In this document: in pieces, positions 7,608 to 19,288 of the stretch
Position numbering within the stretch: position 1 is the stretch's first letter
Layout: every line of letters starts with the position of its first letter
From: Candidatus Schekmanbacteria bacterium
Lineage (GTDB): Bacteria > CSSED10-310 > JACPHN01
Assembly: GCA_016188575.1 (NCBI GenBank)
Contig: JACPHN010000211.1
Location: 1 to 19,414, forward strand
DNA: 19,414 bases
Direction of reading: 5' to 3'
Notes under the pieces: generated by a model
Told to the model about the DNA's origin: nothing
The model's input: only the letters and a program-made list of their open reading frames with translations
Databases searched by the model: none
Program-made: the position numbers and the translations under genes

Positions 7608-9673
7608 ACGACACCCGCATCGACGCGATCGCCGCCGGCCGCTTCGAGCTCGGCGATCTTCTCGGCGCCGGAGCCACAGGAACCGTATACCGCGGGTTCG
7701 ATCGCCAGACCGGCAACGATGTCGCCATCAAGCTGCTCCATCCCCACCTCGAAGCCGCCGAATCCCGGCACCGCCTACAGCGCGAAATCGCGCTCGTCGA
7801 AACGGTGCTCCACCCGAACATTGTGCGGCTCTACGAAGTGGTGTCCTTCCCGCCATCTATCGGTCTCGTGATGGAGCTTCTCGCCGGGGGAAGTCTCCGG
7901 CAGGCGCTGCAGCGCGGACCGTTGCCGTCCTTGCAACAATCGGTCGGTTGGCTCCGCGACATCGCCGCCGCGCTGGCGGCCGCGCATGGTCGTGTGCTCC
8001 TCCATCGCGACGTCAAGCCGCAAAACGTGCTTCTGACCGCGGATCACGCTGCGGCCAAGCTCGCCGACTTCGGCCTTGCCTTCAGTCTCGGCGAAGCGGC
8101 CGCGGGCGCGGAATCGACGCGCATCCACGCCGGCGAGCACGCGTTGCGCGGCACTCCTCTATACATGGCGCCCGAGGTCTTTCGCGGTGACTTCTACGAT
8201 CCGCGTTCAGACTTGTATTCTCTTGGCGTTGTCGCCTACGAGATGCTGACCGGCCGCCCACCCTTTCTGGCCGGCGGGGCCGTGGAAATCCAGTACCGCC
8301 ACAGGACGCAGGCCGCTCAGGCACCCAGCGCGCTGCGGGCCGACCTGCCGAAACGGCTCGACGAGCTGGTGCTCGCGTGCCTCGAAAAACGGCCCGAGGA
8401 TCGCGTCCAGACGGCGCAGGAGCTGGGGGAGGAGCTGGCCGCGATCGAGGCGATTGGCTGCTCGCCGGCGGCGCCTCGCGGAGTCGGCTTGCCGGGACGC
8501 CGGCGGGTTTCGGGGATCCGCGGCCGGCCGTGCCCGTCGTGTGGAGAGAGCATCCCGCCGCAGTTATCGGCCTGCCCCTGGTGCACCTCCCGCCCGTTCG
8601 CGAGCCTCGGTCGAGGACGCTATTGTGTGGTGTTGGAGCCGCCGATACCCGCCTCAGGATTGCGAACGGTGCTCGAAGGAATCGCCGGCGACCTCCCGGG
8701 GCTCTACCCGCTGCCGGTGAACGAGGCGATCCTCGAGGCTGTTGCCGTGGCGACGGGTCAGGCGGACCTGGACCGGGAAGAGGGACTCAGGCGCCTGCAC
8801 CTGCTTCCGTGCCTGCTCGTGGCGCGCCTGGACCGCGAAGACGCGGCGCACCTGGTCGCGCGGATCAGCGCCGTGGGCGGTCGCGCGAGAATCAGACGCT
8901 ACTTCAGGTATCTCGCATGGGGAGCGGCACTGCCCGGAATTCGGCACATCCGGGAAGCCGCTGCGCTGGGGCCGGCGGGAGTGGGCATTGGCGGCCTCAG
9001 CCTTGCCGCCGTGGCGATTGGCAAGGCAGGGTGGCGGCTCGCGATCGAGGGGTTGAGGCCCGAAGTCCTTACTGACCTCATCATCTGGTGCAAATTCGTG
9101 CCCGTTTTTGCAATGCTGCTCCTCTACGGAGTCTATCGCGCCGAGCTCCGGCTGCGGCGTCCGCTTGCGATCCTCGTGGATGGGGCCGGATCCCGGATCC
9201 GTGCAGCGCGGATGCCGCCCCCGCAGGCAGTGCTGCAGGCGGCCCGCTGCGTGTTGCCCACGCTCGAAGATCGCGGCATCCGCCGCATTACCGTCAGCGC
9301 CATGGCGATCGCCGCGCGCCTCAGGGAGCGCGCCCAGTCGGAGACCTGGGCGGCGATGGTCGACCGCGTTCTGGTTGGCGCGCTGGGTCTCGCCCTCGCC
9401 GCCCAGCAGGCCCGTGAGGAGCACCACCTTGCCGGTGGCGCGCAAGCGGAACGTGGCTTGCGCGCGTTTAGCCGGCTCGTGGGGTTGCGCGCGCGGCTCG
9501 ATCGACTGCTCGCGCTTGTCGAGCTTGGGGGCATGGACCAGAACCTTGCCGCGGGCGACCTCGACCGGCTCCTGCGCGAGGTCGAGCTCGAGGCCGAGCT
9601 CGTTGCGGAGGTTCGGGCCGCGGAGTCACCAGGCGAAAGCCCCCCAGAGATTGGCGCGGCGGCGCACGAATGA
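7604..9673 (+). CDS. Serine/threonine protein kinase with zinc ribbon and two membrane segments
   Basis: The protein has 689 residues from the GTG at 7604, which overlaps the upstream stop (GTGA); a GTG at 7598 is an alternative. All kinase landmarks are present: glycine loop GAGATG at 21-26, VAIK Lys43, alphaC Glu61, HRDVKPQN with Asp136, Lys138 and Asn141, DFG at 155-157, and GTPLYMAPE ending at 191. It should phosphorylate Ser or Thr in cytoplasmic targets, which are unknown. After the kinase come a zinc ribbon (C310-x2-C313, C324-x2-C327), a domain ending LLVARLDREDAAHLVARISAVGGRARI, two membrane segments (about 453-475 and 489-511) and a helical tail. There is no PASTA or other outer sensor domain, so input probably comes from the zinc ribbon, the tail or the pseudokinase. 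The same domain order in both genes shows tandem duplication. Confidence 0.9.
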   Translation: MNDTRIDAIAAGRFELGDLLGAGATGTVYRGFDRQTGNDVAIKLLHPHLEAAESRHRLQREIALVETVLHPNIVRLYEVVSFPPSIGLVMELLAGGSLRQALQRGPLPSLQQSVGWLRDIAAALAAAHGRVLLHRDVKPQNVLLTADHAAAKLADFGLAFSLGEAAAGAESTRIHAGEHALRGTPLYMAPEVFRGDFYDPRSDLYSLGVVAYEMLTGRPPFLAGGAVEIQYRHRTQAAQAPSALRADLPKRLDELVLACLEKRPEDRVQTAQELGEELAAIEAIGCSPAAPRGVGLPGRRRVSGIRGRPCPSCGESIPPQLSACPWCTSRPFASLGRGRYCVVLEPPIPASGLRTVLEGIAGDLPGLYPLPVNEAILEAVAVATGQADLDREEGLRRLHLLPCLLVARLDREDAAHLVARISAVGGRARIRRYFRYLAWGAALPGIRHIREAAALGPAGVGIGGLSLAAVAIGKAGWRLAIEGLRPEVLTDLIIWCKFVPVFAMLLLYGVYRAELRLRRPLAILVDGAGSRIRAARMPPPQAVLQAARCVLPTLEDRGIRRITVSAMAIAARLRERAQSETWAAMVDRVLVGALGLALAAQQAREEHHLAGGAQAERGLRAFSRLVGLRARLDRLLALVELGGMDQNLAAGDLDRLLREVELEAELVAEVRAAESPGESPPEIGAAAHE

Positions 9674-9721
9674 CCGCGCTGCCTGAATCCACCCCCTGTT
9701 TGGCGGCAAGCTGCCCGGAAA

Positions 9722-9770: not shown

Positions 9771-9886
9771 TCGTGTCGACGTCAAACCGGTGGTGGATTC
9801 AGGGCCGCACGCAAGCGGCTGCGTTTCCCATATGCCTACGCCGGCGGGTGGGGAAGGCCACAGGGAGGTCCTGGCCCAGCTCGGAC

Positions 9887-9961: not shown

Positions 9962-11153
9962 GTGAAGGAAGTCTACCTCGACAACAATGCGTCGGCACCG
10001 CCGCTCGAAGAGGTTTGTGTGGCGGTCCACACGGCTATGCGCGAGGGATTCGGCAACCCATCTTCCGCGCACGGGCGGGGGCGTGAGGCGCGGCGCGAGC
10101 TCGAGCTGGCCCGTGAGCGGGTTGCGGCGTTCCTGGGTGCAGAGACTCACCAGATCGTGTTCACATCGGGTGGCACCGAGGGCAATGCCACCGTCATGGG
10201 CGGGATGCTGCGGGGTGGCGTTGCCGGTCGGCTGGTGACCACGGTCGTGGAGCACGCTTCGATTCTGCGCCCCGCGGAGGCGCTGGCACGGACGGGTGTG
10301 GACGTGAGCTTCGTGCCGGTCGATGGCGACGGGCTGGTCGATTGCGACCAGGTCGAAGAAACCATCGGCGATTCACGAGCGTGTGTTTACACACACACAC
10401 ACACACACACCGCTCCTTTCTGTCCAGTGGGTCTGCGGTGAGACCGGCGTAGTCCAACCCCTCGCGCGTCTCGCCGCGATCGCGCACCGCAGCGGTGCCT
10501 CGCTGCATGTCGATGCCGCACAGGCAGTTGGCCGCCTGCCGATCGACCTGGCCGCGTTCCCGGGCATCGACTTCCTGACCTTCTCCGGGCACAAGCTCCA
10601 CGGCCCGCTCGGCACCGGCGTCCTGTATGCGCGCGAGCCGCGCTCACTGACACCGTTGCTGCTCGGTGGCGAACAGGAGCGCGGTGTCCGGTCCGGCACC
10701 GAGAACTTGCCCGGCATCGTCGGTCTGGCGCTGGCCTGCGAGCTGCGCCGGCGCGGTCTCCCCGAGGCCATCGCCCGCATGCGGCACCTCCGCGACCGGT
10801 TCGAGGCGCGGGTCATTGGCGAGGTCGTGGGCGCCGCCGTGAACGGGGCAGGTGCGCCCCGCGTCGGCAACACGAGCAACCTGCGATTTCTCGGCCTGGA
10901 CGGGCAGGCGCTACTCGCGCAGCTCGACCGCAGGGGAATTGCGTGCTCGCAAGGTTCTGCTTGCTCGAGCCGCCGGCCTCAGCCCTCGCACGTGCTGCGG
11001 GCGATGGGGCTATCCGAGGACGAAGCCTTCTCGAGCCTGCGCTTTTCGTTCTCTGTGCTCAACACCAACGAGGACGTCGAGCGGGCGGCGTGCGCCATAA
11101 AGGACGCAACCGCGCAGCTTCGGGCACTTCCGTCGCTCTTAGAGGCGCTGTGA
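9962..11153 (+). pseudogene. sspA: Cysteine desulfurase (SspA-like), split by a frameshift at an (AC)11 tract
   Basis: Two overlapping frames make one NifS/IscS-type enzyme of about 396 residues. The first frame (GTG 9962 to TGA 10441) gives YLDNNASAPP, NPSSAHGRG, FTSGGTEGN and VVEHASIL with the PLP-stacking His98. It then enters the AC tract as CVYTHTHTHT and stops 31 bases past it. The second frame, open to 11153, resumes at LLSVQWVCGETGVVQPL and keeps VDAAQAVGRLPID, the PLP lysine in TFSGHKLHG (codon 10593), GGEQERGVRSGTEN and the active cysteine in QGSACSS (codon 10962). Such enzymes pass persulfide sulfur to the PT machinery. Tracts of 9 or 12 AC units would join the frames; 10 or 11 do not. 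The usual ANNETG reads VCGETG here, so an Asn near PLP is missing. As written the gene is off; it could be phase-variable, decayed, or a sequencing error. Confidence 0.85.
10389..10410 (+). repeat. (AC)11 dinucleotide microsatellite inside sspA
   Basis: Eleven perfect AC units run from 10389 to 10410, preceded by GTGTGTTT, which can pair back on the tract. It is the only such simple repeat in the window and sits exactly where the desulfurase reading frame breaks. Dinucleotide tracts of this length are prone to slipped-strand mispairing. Confidence 0.95.
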
Positions 11154-11155
11154 CG

Positions 11156-12037
11156 ATGCGGTTTGCCGGTCATGAAACCTTTCCGATCCGCACCGGCTGG
11201 CTGAGCAAGGGGCTTCGACTCCTGGGACGGGCGGGCGGCGGGGCGTTCGACCGGCCCGACCTCGCCGACGAGCTGGGAGTCGGGAGGAACATGGCAAAAT
11301 CCATTCGCTTCTGGCTCGACGTGCTCGGCCTCGCCGGTCGCCGCGGGAAAGGCGACCCGCTCGAGCCAACGCCCCTCGGAAAGCTGGTGTGCGACCGCGA
11401 CCCCTATTTCCAGCACACGGCCACCTGGTGGGTGCTGCACGTCAACCTGGTCACCCACCGGGACGTGGCGGTGGCGTGGAGATGGTTCTTCAACGACTTC
11501 GCGCCCGAGCGATTCGATCGGCTGACTTGCTCAGAGGAGCTCGTCGCGGCACTGGAGCGCCAGGGCCAGCGCCTTCCCAGCCGCGAGACCGTCGCGCGAG
11601 AGGTGGCCTGCCTGCTGCAGAGCTACGCGACGCCCGTGCCAGCCGAACAGGAGGATCCGGAAGACGCCGCGGATTGCCCCCTTCGGCAACTCGGCCTGCT
11701 GTCGTGCCACCGGGACACCGGAGCCTACGATCGGCGGTTCGCGGCTCGGTGGGTTCCTCCAGAGCTGCTCGGTTACGTGCTGGCCCGCCGGTCCGGCGCC
11801 GGCCATGGCGGGACCGTGGAGCTTCCTTTCGCGGACTCCCTGGTCGCGGCCGAAGGGCCCGGGCGCGTTCTGGGACTCAACGCCGAGGGGCTGGCGGCGC
11901 TTGTCTCCCGGGCGGCGGAGGCGCTGGGTCCCGAGCAGGTGCGCTTCTTCCTGCTTGGCGGCGAGCGGATGATCGCTGTCGCCAATCGGTCGCCGGGGGC
12001 CTGGCTGGCGAGCTACTACGACCGCGTGGGAGTCTGA
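11156..12037 (+). CDS. sspB: DUF4007 protein, SspB-like phosphorothioation protein
   Basis: The protein has 293 residues from ATG 11156. A GTG at 11150 overlaps the sspA stop and would add two residues; AGAGG upstream could serve either. The N-terminus MRFAGHETFPIRTGWLSKGL is the DUF4007 signature (xFxGHETFxxRxxWLxKG). It is followed by a winged-helix-like part (DLADELGVGRNMAKSIRFWLDVLGL) and a middle segment with WWVLHVNLVTHRDVAVAWRWFFN. The C-terminal part is less distinct (LGLNAEGLAALVSRAAEALG, then RMIAVANRSPGAWLASYYDRVGV). In studied Ssp systems SspB is a DUF4007 protein reported to nick DNA during single-strand PT modification. Its place between the desulfurase and the large ATPase fits sspABCD order. 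The 1-base gap to the next start suggests coupling. The family is clear; the activity is by homology. Confidence 0.85.
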   Translation: MRFAGHETFPIRTGWLSKGLRLLGRAGGGAFDRPDLADELGVGRNMAKSIRFWLDVLGLAGRRGKGDPLEPTPLGKLVCDRDPYFQHTATWWVLHVNLVTHRDVAVAWRWFFNDFAPERFDRLTCSEELVAALERQGQRLPSRETVAREVACLLQSYATPVPAEQEDPEDAADCPLRQLGLLSCHRDTGAYDRRFAARWVPPELLGYVLARRSGAGHGGTVELPFADSLVAAEGPGRVLGLNAEGLAALVSRAAEALGPEQVRFFLLGGERMIAVANRSPGAWLASYYDRVGV

Positions 12038-15000: not shown

Positions 15001-15383
15001 CCTGGGCCGATTGCTTTCGAGATGGCACCGTCGCCGCGGAAAAACTGGACCTGCCGAGCAGAAGTCTCCTCGCCGCCGCGCGCCAGGCCACCAGCAGTCG
15101 TCACACGGAGGTGTCGTTCGCACGTGCAGTCAGCACCCTGCTGCTGGGACGCGGATTCGAGAAGTGGGATGACCGCACCGCCGAACAGCTCGGTCAGGCG
15201 CTGCGAGCTCACGTCGACCGCATCGAGAGCGCCGCGATCGAGAATGATCGCGTTCCACCGAGCCTCGCGCCGATCCTGGAGGGACGGATCGAGAAGCTCG
15301 TGCTCCAGCTTCGCAATGCCATCGGCGCGGCAGCGACCGACCGCCTGTTGGAGCGGCTCAAGCACCAGGAAACGGCGCCGTGA
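12039..15383 (+). CDS. sspC: Large P-loop ATPase, SspC-like
   Basis: The protein has 1114 residues from the GTG at 12039, one base after the sspB stop, with GGGAG in the end of sspB as a likely ribosome site. Walker A is AAYGSGKS at 52-59 and Walker B is AVIWDEFG at 191-198. Between them, residues about 141-168 (GLDSRFRGN, then a Gly/Asn-rich run) are encoded by a REP-like element and look like an insertion. The rest is a long alpha-helical body with no further enzymatic motif that I recognise. In the Ssp scheme SspC is the ATPase that drives the modification complex with SspB and SspD. Position, size and the N-terminal NTPase support the name. The last bases overlap the sspD start as GTGA, implying translational coupling. 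The frame is intact, so the insertion may be tolerated in a loop. Confidence 0.8.
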   Translation: MAIGTELLRSINLLADLREPAPLARYQPTTKGLRVVQAVLEGRPSQATLVIAAYGSGKSLAAGVGGLLVESSHQHSNLVWPLLHRIEGVDAPLAERARERLRSHRGGLVLVLHGHVPNVAAEMWKHAESERHLLESGGPETMTSGLDSRFRGNGGRSGNHGGGGNGDNRELREVLGALVDKAKRAGADRIAVIWDEFGRHLEGLVADGRTADLMAVQDLAEWAARQSAPAATVTLLLHQNLLSYASRLNQAARHGWRKIEGRFATLRFVEDSRELYELIARVVAAARPQAAPASTSALLGTAAARALELGWYRDHADPDSLASLLAEAWPLSPAALYALPLLSARVAQNERTTFSFLDQADLSQPVGLEQLYAYFSEAMRVDTGLGGTHRRWLEAESARSRAADLVERTILATACLLQLGTGGERRRLPRAVLAYAASAGTGLAEPDAEAGIDRLLGRKLLLHRLRSDDISIWHGADIDIRSRLDEEKGRLQADFRLLPFLAKECPPPFCRPLAHNLERGIGRYFGGRYVLASDLLARGARHPALALAPGDDGRLVFAIAETQQLREAVRDCAAGSLTDDPGIVLVVPDRPLEVTEAALELAALVQLQGNEELVGADPLVLPELKELTAVARAHLHRVLAQLTDPARPSATFFARQQAHRIDEAHPVSSLLTALAEARFPHTPRLESELVVRHRLTRPIVNARKKLILAILERTGWASLGLAGMTTPDASIARAVLERPGLYRERAGRWSWAVPEEIADEGLRRVWTRLQSFFALPASAPKPVAALIDELLSPPYGLRRGVLPILFAAALRAFGRALAIRANGAYLPDILASDVEEICKDPARFTVEVLPLTADLKAYLEGIVVELGGGDGAAVGDQELVRDAFDAINAWKAQLPAAALAAEHVGPRTRAMQRALRGYRDPVELLFCLLPAASGARRPSADALAGFREARRSLENVVDGYAAEAIQVIGGTLRVGAKPADDILQRARAWADCFRDGTVAAEKLDLPSRSLLAAARQATSSRHTEVSFARAVSTLLLGRGFEKWDDRTAEQLGQALRAHVDRIESAAIENDRVPPSLAPILEGRIEKLVLQLRNAIGAAATDRLLERLKHQETAP
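12466..12535. repeat. REP-like palindromic element inserted in frame within sspC
   Basis: TCTGGATTCTCGCTTCCGCGGGAATG around 12473-12498 is a copy of the widespread proteobacterial palindrome GGATTCCCGCnnnnGCGGGAAT, with one stem mismatch. Two further GGGAAT units follow at about 12510 and 12528. It translates as LDSRFRGN plus a glycine-rich run, the well-known readthrough of this repeat. It keeps the sspC frame open. Confidence 0.7.
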
Positions 15384-16195
15384 CCTCGATCCCCACCACC
15401 GAGCAAGCCGTCCGCGATGGCGGCGCACGCCACATCTTGCCGCTCTCGGGGGGCAAGGACTCGACCGCGCTCGCCGTCTACATGCTTCGCCGTTTCCCCG
15501 ACACCCGGTTCGAATTGGTGTTCAGCGACACCGGCGCGGAGCTCCCGGAAACCTATCAGTATCTCGCGCGGTTCGAGGCGATCCTTGGTGTGCCGATTAT
15601 CAGGGTCACGGCCCTGGACCTGCTCGGCGTGCGCGCCAAAGCCGGGAGAACGCCATTCGATGTGGTGCTGCACGAGCACTACGGCGGCTTCCTGCCCAGC
15701 CCGCAGGCGCGCTGGTGCACGCGCATGCTGAAGATCAAGCCGTTTGAGCGCTACGTCGGCGCCGACCCGGCGTACTCCTACCTCGGCATCCGCGCCGACG
15801 AACGGCGCAGCGGTTATCTCCCCGGCAGAAAACCGGTACTGATCTCCGATCGCCCCAACATCCTGCCGGTGTACCCGTTCAAGGACGCGCGGATCGGGCT
15901 CGCCGAGGTCAAGGCGTTGCTCGAGGAGAGCGGCCTCGGGCTCCCTCCCTATTACGAATGGCGCACGAGGTCGGGGTGTTATTTCTGCTTCTATCAGCAA
16001 ATCGGTGAATGGCAGGGACTGAAGGAGCACCACCCCGAGCTGTTCGAGCGGGCGAAGGCCTACGAGAAGGCCGAAAACGGGCGCACCTACACCTGGGTGG
16101 ATGGGCGCTCCCTGACCGACGTCGAGAAGCTCGCGCGCCGCCACGAGATCCCGTCGGCCGAGGATCTCGACGGCTGTGCCATCTGTCACCTGTGA
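15380..16195 (+). CDS. sspD: PAPS reductase/ATP pyrophosphatase-like PT protein with cysteine cluster, SspD-like
   Basis: The protein has 271 residues and starts at the GTG at 15380, which overlaps the sspC stop. LPLSGGKDSTALAVYML holds the pyrophosphatase loop SGGKDS (23-28) that binds ATP or PAPS, and VFSDTGAELPETYQY at 47-61 is the following conserved element. Five cysteines stand out: C113 in RWCT, C200-x2-C203 in GCYFC, and C266-x2-C269 next to the C-terminus. DndC, the equivalent in Dnd systems, carries an iron-sulfur cluster on such cysteines. The likely role is activation of the DNA phosphate or transfer of sulfur received from the desulfurase. CysH itself has a different cysteine layout and the gene context is not sulfate assimilation. 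It closes the compact sspBCD block; the next gene starts 25 bases on with a separate AAAGGAGG site. Confidence 0.85.
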   Translation: MTSIPTTEQAVRDGGARHILPLSGGKDSTALAVYMLRRFPDTRFELVFSDTGAELPETYQYLARFEAILGVPIIRVTALDLLGVRAKAGRTPFDVVLHEHYGGFLPSPQARWCTRMLKIKPFERYVGADPAYSYLGIRADERRSGYLPGRKPVLISDRPNILPVYPFKDARIGLAEVKALLEESGLGLPPYYEWRTRSGCYFCFYQQIGEWQGLKEHHPELFERAKAYEKAENGRTYTWVDGRSLTDVEKLARRHEIPSAEDLDGCAICHL

Positions 16196-16202
16196 CGGAA
16201 CG

Positions 16203-16370
16203 AAAGGAGGATAGCGAGGAATGGCGCACACGAACCTCCCGGTCGACTTCCTCCGGCACTATGGCCCGATCGCCGTCACGGACAACCAGCACGACGAACG
16301 GATCGCCGACGCCGTCGCGCGAGACGGTGTCGAACCCATCATCGTGCCGCCGGCGAGGCCGGAGACGCGG
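16203..16370 (+). repeat. Direct repeat, copy 1 (start of the helicase fragment)
   Basis: From the ribosome-binding region through codon 50, this segment matches 17283-17451. From ATG to codon 50 I count about 15 differences in 150 bases, near 90% identity, at a spacing of 1081 bases. The peptides read MAHTNLPVDFLRHYGPIAVT and MPHTNPLVDFLRHYGPIAVK. Similarity stops abruptly after PARPETR. Confidence 0.85.
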
Positions 16371-17255
16371 ACACCGACTTGCGATCCGAATGCGGCGGCC
16401 CGTCCCGGGTTTGGAGTACCGGTGGACCTGCGATACGAGGACGGCCCGTTCGAGCACCAAGGCAGGGCCGTTTCGGCATGGTGTAACGCGGGCTATCGCG
16501 GCGTGCTGGAAATGGCCACCGGCTCCGGCAAGACCATCACCGCGATGATCGCGGCGCACCGGCTTTACCAGACGCGCAAGCCGCTGCTGATCGTCGTCAC
16601 CGCGCCCCATGTGCCGCTGATCCAGCAGTGGCACGAGGAAATGGCCGCGTTTGGGTTGGAGCCGATCAATCTGGCGGGTGCTGGCACCCCCGAAGAGCGC
16701 TTGCGCGTGCTCCAGCGTTTGCAGCGGCGGCTGAGAACCGGACTCTCCGATGTAGAGGCCATCGTGCTCAGTCATGACATGCTGTGCACGCCGCAGTTCC
16801 TGGACGCCGTCGAAGGCTTAGCTTGCTCCCGCCTGCTGATTGCGGACGAAGCGCACAATCTGGGCCGCCCATCATTCATTGGGGCGCCGCCGGAATGCGT
16901 CGAGCATCGGCTCGGCCTCTCCGCTACTCCGACCCGCCAGTACGACTCCGAGGGCACGGACGCCTTGTTCGCCTTTTTCGGGCCCGTGGTTTTTCGGTTC
17001 GGGCTCGAGGAGGCGATTGGCCGGTGCCTGGTGGGATACCACTACCATGTCCATCCGGTAAGCCTCACCGCAGGCGAATTGGATGAGTGGTTCGAGAACG
17101 GCCTGGCCGTCGCCGGCCTGCCGAGAGTGGTCGAGATGCTGAAGACGGGAGATGCAGAGCCAATCTGGAACCTCTCGGATGCCATCGATGAGATGCTGCA
17201 GAAACCCGTGTCGGGCGAGCAGGCGGGCGAATGGCGCGAGAGCGCCCGGAAATGA
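16221..17255 (+). CDS. Chimeric, truncated DEAH-box SF2 helicase/ATPase fragment
   Basis: The protein has 344 residues from ATG 16221 with AAAGGAGG about 10 bases upstream. Residues 1-50 copy the start of the downstream ATPase. From residue 68 it is an SF2 helicase N-terminal RecA domain: PFEHQGRAV, Walker A MATGSGKT at 98-105, VTAPHVPLIQQW (motif Ia), IADEAH at 207-212 (motif II) and LSATPT at 233-238 (motif III). It reaches GYHYHVHPVSLTAGELDEW, where a full helicase would enter its second RecA domain, but motifs IV-VI are absent. The last 53 residues resemble nothing I know. Without the second domain it should not translocate on DNA, though nucleotide binding is possible. Best reading: a helicase gene of the restriction module, shortened at its 3' end and fused at its 5' end to a duplicated leader. 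A working single-domain protein cannot be excluded. Confidence 0.7.
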   Translation: MAHTNLPVDFLRHYGPIAVTDNQHDERIADAVARDGVEPIIVPPARPETRTPTCDPNAAARPGFGVPVDLRYEDGPFEHQGRAVSAWCNAGYRGVLEMATGSGKTITAMIAAHRLYQTRKPLLIVVTAPHVPLIQQWHEEMAAFGLEPINLAGAGTPEERLRVLQRLQRRLRTGLSDVEAIVLSHDMLCTPQFLDAVEGLACSRLLIADEAHNLGRPSFIGAPPECVEHRLGLSATPTRQYDSEGTDALFAFFGPVVFRFGLEEAIGRCLVGYHYHVHPVSLTAGELDEWFENGLAVAGLPRVVEMLKTGDAEPIWNLSDAIDEMLQKPVSGEQAGEWRESARK

Positions 17256-17282
17256 AAGCAAGGTTCGGCGAGGTCGAGCACT

Positions 17283-17451
17283 AAAGAAGGAACAGCGAGG
17301 AATGCCGCACACGAACCCCCTGGTCGACTTCCTCCGGCACTACGGTCCGATCGCCGTCAAGGACAACCAGTACGACGAGCGGATCGGTGACGCCGTCGCG
17401 CAATACGGTGTCGAACCCATCATCGTGCCGTCGGCGAGGCTGGAGACGCTG
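17283..17451 (+). repeat. Direct repeat, copy 2 (start of the P-loop ATPase gene)
   Basis: This is the partner of 16203-16370, including AAAGAAGGA and AGCGAGGAATG upstream of the start codon. Here the sequence continues smoothly into the P-loop ATPase (RLETLLRNFRD, then the Walker A), so this copy is probably the original and copy 1 the transplanted one. Confidence 0.85.
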
Positions 17452-19152
17452 CTGCGCAACTTCCGCGACCCGTGTCCGAAAAACGTGATCCTGACGGGAA
17501 CCGCGGGCGATGGCAAGACCTTTTGCTGCCGTCAGGTCTTCGAGCAGCTCGGCGGCAACAGCGCGGATTGGGCACGGGGAGACAAGACCATTTCGGTTGT
17601 CTTGCCGGCAAGGGCCGCCGAGCTCGTCATCATCAAGGATCTCAGCGGGCTCACGGATGCCGACAAGCAGGTGCATATTCCGGAAGTCGCACGGGCGTTC
17701 CGGGGAGAACAGAGCTCCCGCTGCTATCTCATTGCCGCCAATGACGGACAACTGCTGGCCACATGGCGACGGGGCCCCGATCAACCGCTCTTCCGCGAGA
17801 TCGAGTCCATGCTGGTCGACGAGCGCGAGGAGCACGGCTCGCTGAGCCTGCGCATGTACAACTTGAGTCGCGGGGACGACGCCGGCCTTTTCGAGGCGCT
17901 GGTGGAAAAAATCATTTCGCATCCCGACTGGCGCCGCTGTGACGCTTGCCCGGCAGCGACCGGCGATGATCGCCAACCGAGCTGCCCCATCCTGGTCAAT
18001 CGCCAGCGCCTCGACACCGGTGGCCCCTGGCAGCTCCGATCGCGGCTGCGAGAGCTGATCGAGCTGGTCGCCGCAAACGACCAGCATCTCCCCATTCGAC
18101 AGCTTCTCCTGCTTGTGGTCAACGTGCTTCTGGGCGATGCCACGCTTCCGAATCCCGTGCTCAATTGCAATCGCGCGCGGCGGCGGGCCGCCGAGTCACG
18201 GTACGAAGCCACCAACCCGTACGGGAACGTGTTCGGCGGCAACCTGAACGAACGCGAGCGCGCTCAGCATCTCGTGTTTGCCGTGCTGCTGGACCTGGGC
18301 GTTGGGCGAGAGACCGAAAGCGAGGTGGACGACCTGCTCGTCTTCGGCGAGTACGAGGCCCCGGAGCGGTTCCGCCGACTGGTAAAGGAAGATGAGCGCT
18401 TCGGTGATGCCACCTACGCGCGGGAGCGCGAACGGTATCTCAACGGCGAGCGCCGCCAGGTGAGCGGGTTTTTGCGCGCCCTCGAGGCGCAGCGCCGCCG
18501 GCTGTTCTTCGAGGCCTCCGACGGGCCGCAGGATCAGGACCGCGTCAACCGCTGGCGCCTCACGGCGTTCAGGCATGCCGGGGAGTATCTGCAATTTCGG
18601 AAGTCGCTCCGCGGACCTGCCGGTGGTGGCGAGCGGTGGAGTGGGCTGCTAACCCGTGGCCTCAATCGGACATTCTCGGGCATGATGATCGATACGACTT
18701 CGGAGCTGTACCTGGCGGCCGCCGGTGGTGATGGCCGCGGCAGAGTAGCTCGGTTTCTCGCCCGGGAGGAGGTTCCGGTCGGCAGGCCGGACCGCCGGCC
18801 GTTCCTGCTCGTCGAGTGGCGCGAAGGCCGCCCGCACCCGCAACTCACCGTGCTGGATGACCCGCGTGCACGGCGGATCATCGCGGAGATCGAGCTTCGA
18901 CTAACCCATTTCGAGTATCTCATGCGCGTCGCGTCGGGGAGCCTCCCCGCGAGCTTTTCCAGGCAGTGTTACGAGGATCTCCAGGGATTCAAGCTCCGCC
19001 TCGTCGAGGCGCTCGAGCGGCTCGACGAGGAGCTTGGCCTGAAGACCGGCCGGGATGAAAGCTGCGTCGAGCTCCTCGCCCTCGAGATCAATCCCTCGGG
19101 CAGCGTAGAAAAACCGAAAGTCATCATTCGAGTGCCACGCGATGACCAGTGA
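17302..19152 (+). CDS. P-loop ATPase of the PT-associated restriction module (DptF-like/SspF candidate)
   Basis: The protein has 616 residues from ATG 17302 (AAGAAGGA upstream). The start is chosen because it matches the duplicated copy at 16221; the frame is open further upstream but non-conserved there. Walker A is GTAGDGKT at 66-73. LVIIKDLSGL (108-117) may be Walker B and CYLIAANDG (141-149) resembles a sensor-1 strand. A small cysteine set, C213-x2-C216 and C228, could bind zinc. The rest is helical, with NPYGNVFGGNLNERERAQHLVFAVL a distinctive block. In Dnd and Ssp loci an ATPase of this kind belongs to the F/G/H group that restricts non-PT DNA, which is the proposed role. I cannot assign it firmly to one named family. 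Its end overlaps the next start by 11 bases. Confidence 0.7.
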   Translation: MPHTNPLVDFLRHYGPIAVKDNQYDERIGDAVAQYGVEPIIVPSARLETLLRNFRDPCPKNVILTGTAGDGKTFCCRQVFEQLGGNSADWARGDKTISVVLPARAAELVIIKDLSGLTDADKQVHIPEVARAFRGEQSSRCYLIAANDGQLLATWRRGPDQPLFREIESMLVDEREEHGSLSLRMYNLSRGDDAGLFEALVEKIISHPDWRRCDACPAATGDDRQPSCPILVNRQRLDTGGPWQLRSRLRELIELVAANDQHLPIRQLLLLVVNVLLGDATLPNPVLNCNRARRRAAESRYEATNPYGNVFGGNLNERERAQHLVFAVLLDLGVGRETESEVDDLLVFGEYEAPERFRRLVKEDERFGDATYARERERYLNGERRQVSGFLRALEAQRRRLFFEASDGPQDQDRVNRWRLTAFRHAGEYLQFRKSLRGPAGGGERWSGLLTRGLNRTFSGMMIDTTSELYLAAAGGDGRGRVARFLAREEVPVGRPDRRPFLLVEWREGRPHPQLTVLDDPRARRIIAEIELRLTHFEYLMRVASGSLPASFSRQCYEDLQGFKLRLVEALERLDEELGLKTGRDESCVELLALEINPSGSVEKPKVIIRVPRDDQ

Positions 19153-19288
19153 GCCCCGGCTGCCGAACGACCATGTGGACCTGCAGGGTGCGAATATCCG
19201 GCTCTGGGCCGAAGAGGCCATTTGGGGCCATCGCTTCTACGACAACCAGACCCCCTGGCTTCTGGTGCTCGAGCTCCATCAACCCTGA
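19142..19288 (+). CDS. Short 48-codon frame, possibly the 5' remnant of a restriction-module gene
   Basis: The frame runs from ATG 19142, overlapping the ATPase stop by 11 bases, to TGA 19286-19288. The peptide includes LWAEEAIWGHRFYDNQTPWLLVLEL, dense in Trp and aromatic residues and with the look of a conserved protein start. All three forward frames stop by about 19315, so one frameshift would not restore a long protein. It is either a truncated gene or a genuine very small protein. I do not recognise it securely; a G-type component of an Ssp/Dnd restriction set is a guess from position. Confidence 0.4.
   Translation: MTSEPRLPNDHVDLQGANIRLWAEEAIWGHRFYDNQTPWLLVLELHQP

Follow-up and report, generated by a model that had tools for sequence, protein, structure and literature searches.

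A frame-setting AC repeat in sspA, with tracts in related operons, suggests phase switching of Ssp-type phosphorothioation

Why should the desulfurase gene of a phosphorothioation operon that is otherwise in canonical order be divided between two reading frames, with the break lying on a run of eleven AC units? The window analysed here is the entire contig C58, 19,414 bp long, from a 9.2-Mb assembly of Candidatus Schekmanbacteria (275 contigs, a ~94% complete MAG consensus). The phylum of the host is sparsely sampled, and a search of eight of its genomes found the Ssp locus in no relative. An SspB scan of genome contigs for close relatives of the window locus likewise gave no matches. Mis-binning of the contig was rejected on its tetranucleotide composition, which fits the bin at a distance of 0.103, where 20-kb pieces of other contigs lie at 0.05-0.19. 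From position 9962 onward the contig carries a phosphorothioation operon that lies wholly on the forward strand. Its sspA is spread over two frames; sspB, sspC and sspD follow, then the chimeric remnant of a helicase, sspF and the start of sspG:

9962 to 10441, forward strand: sspA, N-terminal part, 159 codons from a GTG start; PADLOC SspA (PDLC02759) at 1.5e-36 and 124 bits, profile positions 1-138 of 374; Pfam Aminotran_5
10381 to 10386, forward strand: GTGTGT, adjoining the tract and complementary to it; a weak hairpin is predicted
10389 to 10410, forward strand: the (AC)11 tract, encoding THTHTH in the SspA loop that follows a helix and precedes the strand LLSVQW
10411 to 11153, forward strand: sspA, C-terminal part, in the +1 frame; PADLOC SspA at 8.3e-75 and 250 bits, profile positions 131-374 of 374
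11156 to 12037, forward strand: sspB (DUF4007 nickase); PADLOC SspB at 1e-100; PF13182
12039 to 15383, forward strand: sspC (ATPase), frame open; PADLOC SspC at 4e-133
15380 to 16195, forward strand: sspD (PAPS-reductase-like, DndC-like); PADLOC SspD at 1e-88; 57-68% identity to relatives
16221 to 17256, forward strand: chimera of an SspF start (36 aa) and a PbeA/dnd_restrict_1 helicase fragment; PADLOC PbeA positions 253-469 of 672 and SspF positions 1-36 of 600; TIGR04095
17302 to 19152, forward strand: sspF, full length; PADLOC SspF at 3e-184, positions 1-600 of 600; 616 aa against 603-626 in relatives
19142 to 19288, forward strand: sspG, first 44-48 codons only, matching the start of SspG proteins of ~510-560 aa
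19274 to 19414, forward strand: terminal part of a repeated element by which sspG is interrupted; contigs C54, C47 and C75 carry an identical 140 bp at their ends

The genes sspA, sspB, sspC and sspD are neighbours in the canonical order, their PADLOC matches span the full profiles (for sspA by way of its two frames), and the pairs sspA/B, B/C, C/D and F/G overlap or nearly touch. In gene set and order the locus resembles SspABCD-SspFGH, a single-strand DNA phosphorothioate (PT) defence described from Vibrio anguillarum FF-93 (PMC8092258), and every protein matches by PADLOC profile. It differs from that system in that sspA is broken at a simple repeat, sspG is cut short, and a helicase remnant stands between sspD and sspF. 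A 24-nt inverted repeat (88%) with a 74-nt spacer lies directly upstream of sspA (9682-9705 and 9780-9803), and is possibly a small mobile element or a terminator.

The frame that opens at the GTG at 9962 runs into a premature TGA at 10439-10441, and the remainder of sspA lies in the +1 frame to 11153. Around the break the upstream frame reads ...RACVYTHTHTHTAPFCPVGLR-stop, and the other frame reads ...THTPLLSVQWVCGETGVVQP and is open through to 11153. The first-pass annotation had placed the microsatellite at 10381-10412; there is a tract there, with the (AC)11 proper confined to 10389-10410 and the rest of that interval being GTGTGTTT before it and two bases after it. Its claim that the desulfurase frame breaks exactly at the eleven units agrees with the frames and the stop as we read them. 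So does its arithmetic that 9 or 12 units would restore one continuous frame and 10 or 11 would not: when the units were replaced computationally, 6, 9, 12 or 15 of them gave a single open frame and 7, 8, 10, 11, 13 or 14 a broken one, the open frame at counts divisible by three being ~394-400 codons long. No AC run of eight or more units arose in 200 dinucleotide shuffles of the window, the tract is the sole AC tract of at least 10 units in the 9.2-Mb genome, and a 400-kb genome sample held no dinucleotide repeats of at least 5 units besides CG/GC. The (AC)11 tract is not expected by chance, and it sets the frame of sspA. The weak hairpin predicted with the adjoining GTGTGT might play some part in slippage. 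The genome as a whole holds 86 G or C runs of at least 9 in its 9.2 Mb, and other genes in it may host slippery tracts.

Both halves of sspA had also been described as conserved, including the PLP lysine and the catalytic cysteine, and this is borne out by the profile scores given above and by the residues themselves, with the lysine present in SGHK (10593-10595) and the cysteine in GSAC (10962-10964). In intact SspAs a short loop joins a helix and the strand (L/I)(V/I)S.QWAN; in the window the tract lengthens this loop by ~10 residues. An AlphaFold model of the SspA of a related locus, L047 (mean pLDDT 93), places its own tract residues, 136-138, between a helix at 123-135 and a strand at 142-147. 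Because the tract falls in this loop between helix and strand, the model suggests that changes in loop length should be tolerated. One residue of the window protein does depart from its relatives: it has Cys (WVCGETG) where the Asn before ETG (N150) stands in 31 of 31 rows of alignment A4. This substitution may or may not matter. We rejected CGETG as proof of decay and keep the change from Asn to Cys as a caveat only, since the position that follows varies freely (N/S/G) and the SspA of Azospirillum (L014) has Ser at the near-invariant Asn position.

Repeats of this kind recur in related Ssp loci. Loci were gathered by SspD and SspB similarity, blind to repeats, and 120 of them were surveyed for runs, with G or C runs of at least 9 inside sspA or sspC entering the tally:

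L043, 5191 to 5200: G10 in sspA, frame broken; same loop as the AC tract of the window
L047, 5193 to 5201: G9 in sspA, frame open; same loop as the AC tract of the window
L056: C9 in sspA, frame open, made of Pro codons
L055, 8122 to 8132: G11 (coding strand) in sspC, frame broken
L159 (genome G411), 9049 to 9061: C13 (coding strand) in sspC, frame broken
L160 (genome G410), 9064 to 9073: G10 (coding strand) in sspC, frame open
L169 (genome G115), 7657 to 7668: G12 (coding strand) in sspC of a distant system, frame open

The comparison of tracts in relatives that the first-pass annotation had proposed thus finds them in orthologous sspA and sspC genes, in open and broken states, in other species and in a different phylum from that of the window. 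L055, L159 and L160 are Rhodobacterales Ssp operons, and their sspC tracts are, from their sequences, candidate switches in a second gene of the system. The two halves of the L055 SspC are 59% and 52% identical to the SspC of Falsirhodobacter, and the frame-breaking sspC tracts of relatives bring an early stop at about residue 690-745. In the window the frame of sspC, the gene that holds tracts in several of these relatives, is open. None of the 120 loci has a G or C run of at least 9 in sspB, sspD, sspF or sspG. In the system of L169, sspA is divergently oriented (L129).

Some candidates were set aside. The C9 of L056 was rejected as support for a switch, being an open frame of Pro codons, and was scored against the clade comparison given below. 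The sspC break of L049 (2985-3060) lies at a GC palindrome that resembles a terminator, with six T's after it and no plain simple repeat, and was left out of the count; G9 runs on the Falsirhodobacter plasmid lie outside its ssp operon. Scans of the Rhodobacteraceae, of the genus Roseovarius, of the whole class and of viral sequences gave few or no further members of the tract-bearing clade. Ssp-type genes do occur on contigs of the IMG/VR viral class (L012, L013, L029 and L137-L149).

The tracts are more frequent than codon usage would produce. Five G or C runs of at least 10 were observed in sspA and sspC against 0.61 expected from codon shuffles (P ~4e-4), and three of at least 11 against 0.15 (P ~5e-4). 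The modification genes hold 7 of the 9 G or C runs of at least 9 in all locus DNA while making up 28% of it (P = 0.003), and genome-wide numbers of such runs in the tract-bearing hosts are modest, from 10 to 72 per genome. On the SspD tree the window falls within an 11-row group (support 97/92) together with Azospirillum L014, Latescibacterota L041 and eight Rhodobacterales systems. Tract carriers make up 6 of the 11 rows of this clade and 1 of the 53 others; the Fisher values (4e-5, or 2e-4 without the window) serve as a guide only, because related rows are not independent draws. The letters of the tracts vary (AC, G or C), and so do their places, with a single site in sspA and two in sspC; this suggests that the tracts arose several times and were not inherited from one ancestral tract.

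We therefore propose, with a probability of roughly 0.57, that (AC)11 acts, or acted until recently, as a contingency switch of the slipped-strand type in an Ssp operon, and that the assembly shows it in its OFF state. A repeat-controlled phase switch is the best reading of these sequences. What began as a lone suspicion has become a supported hypothesis because related systems share tracts, in sspA and, unexpectedly, in sspC, and these independent tracts occur in both states. For the wider group, we lean narrowly towards the view that the clade formed by the Rhodobacterales relatives and the bacterium of the window has repeatedly evolved simple-repeat switches in one or other of sspA and sspC. 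Single-strand PT would then go ON and OFF stochastically, taking along defence and any epigenome based on PT.

Under the switch reading the tract would gain or lose AC units during replication. Counts divisible by three would yield a complete SspA whose surface loop varies in length, and other counts would stop translation just after residue 150, leaving a 159-residue fragment. The genes sspA-B-C-D-F-G stand head to tail, and since they overlap or nearly touch, an early stop in sspA would probably cut downstream expression by polarity; the stops near residue 690-745 of sspC in relatives would probably act likewise on the genes that follow. A single tract could in this way make the modification and the PT-dependent nuclease fall together. 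The step taken by the first-pass annotation, from slippage in sspA to a toggle of the whole modification, is conjectural. Switching off the modification alone would be costly, because SspFGH is described as harmful to cells without PT (PMC8092258), and a joint fall of modification and nuclease would avoid such self-damage. Slippage in cells, polarity and phenotype are what we infer from this arrangement.

The serious rival is a decaying locus, in which a loop repeat expanded by chance and inactivated sspA, the gene has been drifting since, and any switching belongs to the past. The restriction side of the window locus indeed looks broken. The sspG reading stops after 48 aa, where the repeated element shared with three other contig ends begins at 19274, and sspH is absent from the contig; sspF is complete. 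A 156-bp duplication (91%) of the sspF start (16213-16368 and 17294-17449) flanks the PbeA-type helicase fragment, and the duplicated start and the helicase piece together form the chimeric ORF between sspD and sspF. With the restriction side broken, an sspA that is permanently off would be harmless, as losing the SspFGH nuclease would remove the toxicity that is described for cells without PT (PMC8092258). The Cys at the near-invariant Asn of SspA, the absence of an Ssp locus from every relative in the host phylum, and a consensus that offers one allele also weigh against the switch reading, and it may be that the switch of this particular genome is locked in its OFF state as the locus decays. 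Other observations speak against decay. The lesions are the sspA frame and the sspG truncation; the tract aside, both sspA halves, sspB, sspC, sspD and sspF are open and full length, with normal GC by codon position. The same type of tract recurs in the same genes, at the same place and in both states, in intact SspABCD-FGH relatives, and decay does not predict the clustering of tracts on the SspD tree. We regard it as unlikely, though well worth keeping in mind.

An artefact of assembly or sequencing would mean that sspA is intact, its true tract having 9 or 12 units. Short repeats are open to miscounting, the MAG gives one consensus, and the homopolymer counts of the relatives (G10, G11, C13) are of an error-prone kind, so some of the tract states that we invoke for a switch could themselves be sequencing errors. 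Yet a 22-bp tract lies well inside the length of a short read, dinucleotide miscounts are rarer than homopolymer miscounts, and the tract is real whatever its exact count, as are the open-frame tracts of L047, L160 and L169. We consider such an artefact improbable.

The break could also be neutral for PT if sulfur came from elsewhere. The genome encodes three further full-length desulfurases of the IscS/NifS type (41-45% identity, open frames), which might supply sulfur and let PT persist, since housekeeping IscS is described as able to replace SspA (PMC8092258) and can replace DndA (PMC10853773). However, sspA adjoins sspB in about 50 relatives, which suggests a dedicated sulfur donor. The tracts in sspC would be left unexplained, and we know of no substitute for sspC; we give this account very little weight. 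Translational recoding, in which ribosomes slipping within the ACA/CAC repeat would connect the frames in some of the products, can be dismissed for practical purposes: stepping back two bases on ACACA would bring a ribosome into the +1 frame, but a known slippery heptamer or stimulator is absent, and the relatives use G or C tracts of open and broken lengths alike.

The hallmarks of SspABCD-SspFGH are PT at CCA in genomic DNA and PT-dependent phage restriction. Phase variation is not mentioned in those parts of the V. anguillarum account on which we draw (PMC8092258). The closely comparable DndABCDE-FGH system has equivalent desulfurases (DndA for SspA) and an equivalent of SspD in DndC, and IscS can replace its DndA; it differs in placing PT on both strands with other proteins, SspC standing in place of DndD, and DndC profiles match the sspD of the window weakly. 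The nearest parallel in behaviour is Pgl/BREX-2 of Streptomyces coelicolor, a phage defence described as switched by a G tract in pglX (PMC4365076, citing Sumby and Smith 2003). Like the putative Ssp switch it is a modification-based phage defence with a tract inside a modification gene, and its slippage is described as reversible and as possibly avoiding toxicity; unlike it, Pgl involves a methyltransferase, a G tract and measured switching, whereas here the system is Ssp PT with (AC)n, G or C tracts in sspA or sspC, and its switching is proposed from sequence. The phase-variable type I and III restriction-modification systems, or phasevarions (reviewed in PMC12707154), also carry a simple repeat in a modification gene that turns ON or OFF by frame, but theirs is base methylation, and here the target is a backbone sulfur donor or the ATPase SspC. 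The first-pass annotation knew of no such case for an Ssp desulfurase; in the literature searched (papers outside subscription) we found no account of phase-variable phosphorothioation of either the Ssp or the Dnd kind.

In defences based on methylation, such as type I and III restriction-modification and Pgl, phase variation is well established. Read together, the sequences suggest that random ON/OFF switching is common in defence of the Ssp type. If this is true, these operons would be a sulfur-based counterpart of the phasevarion, in which the PT state is predicted to follow from tract length. Annotation pipelines would label such switchable systems broken. Switching of this kind would help to account for the uneven occurrence of PT among related strains, and it would offer a way to test how cells survive the loss of PT while carrying a nuclease against unmodified DNA.
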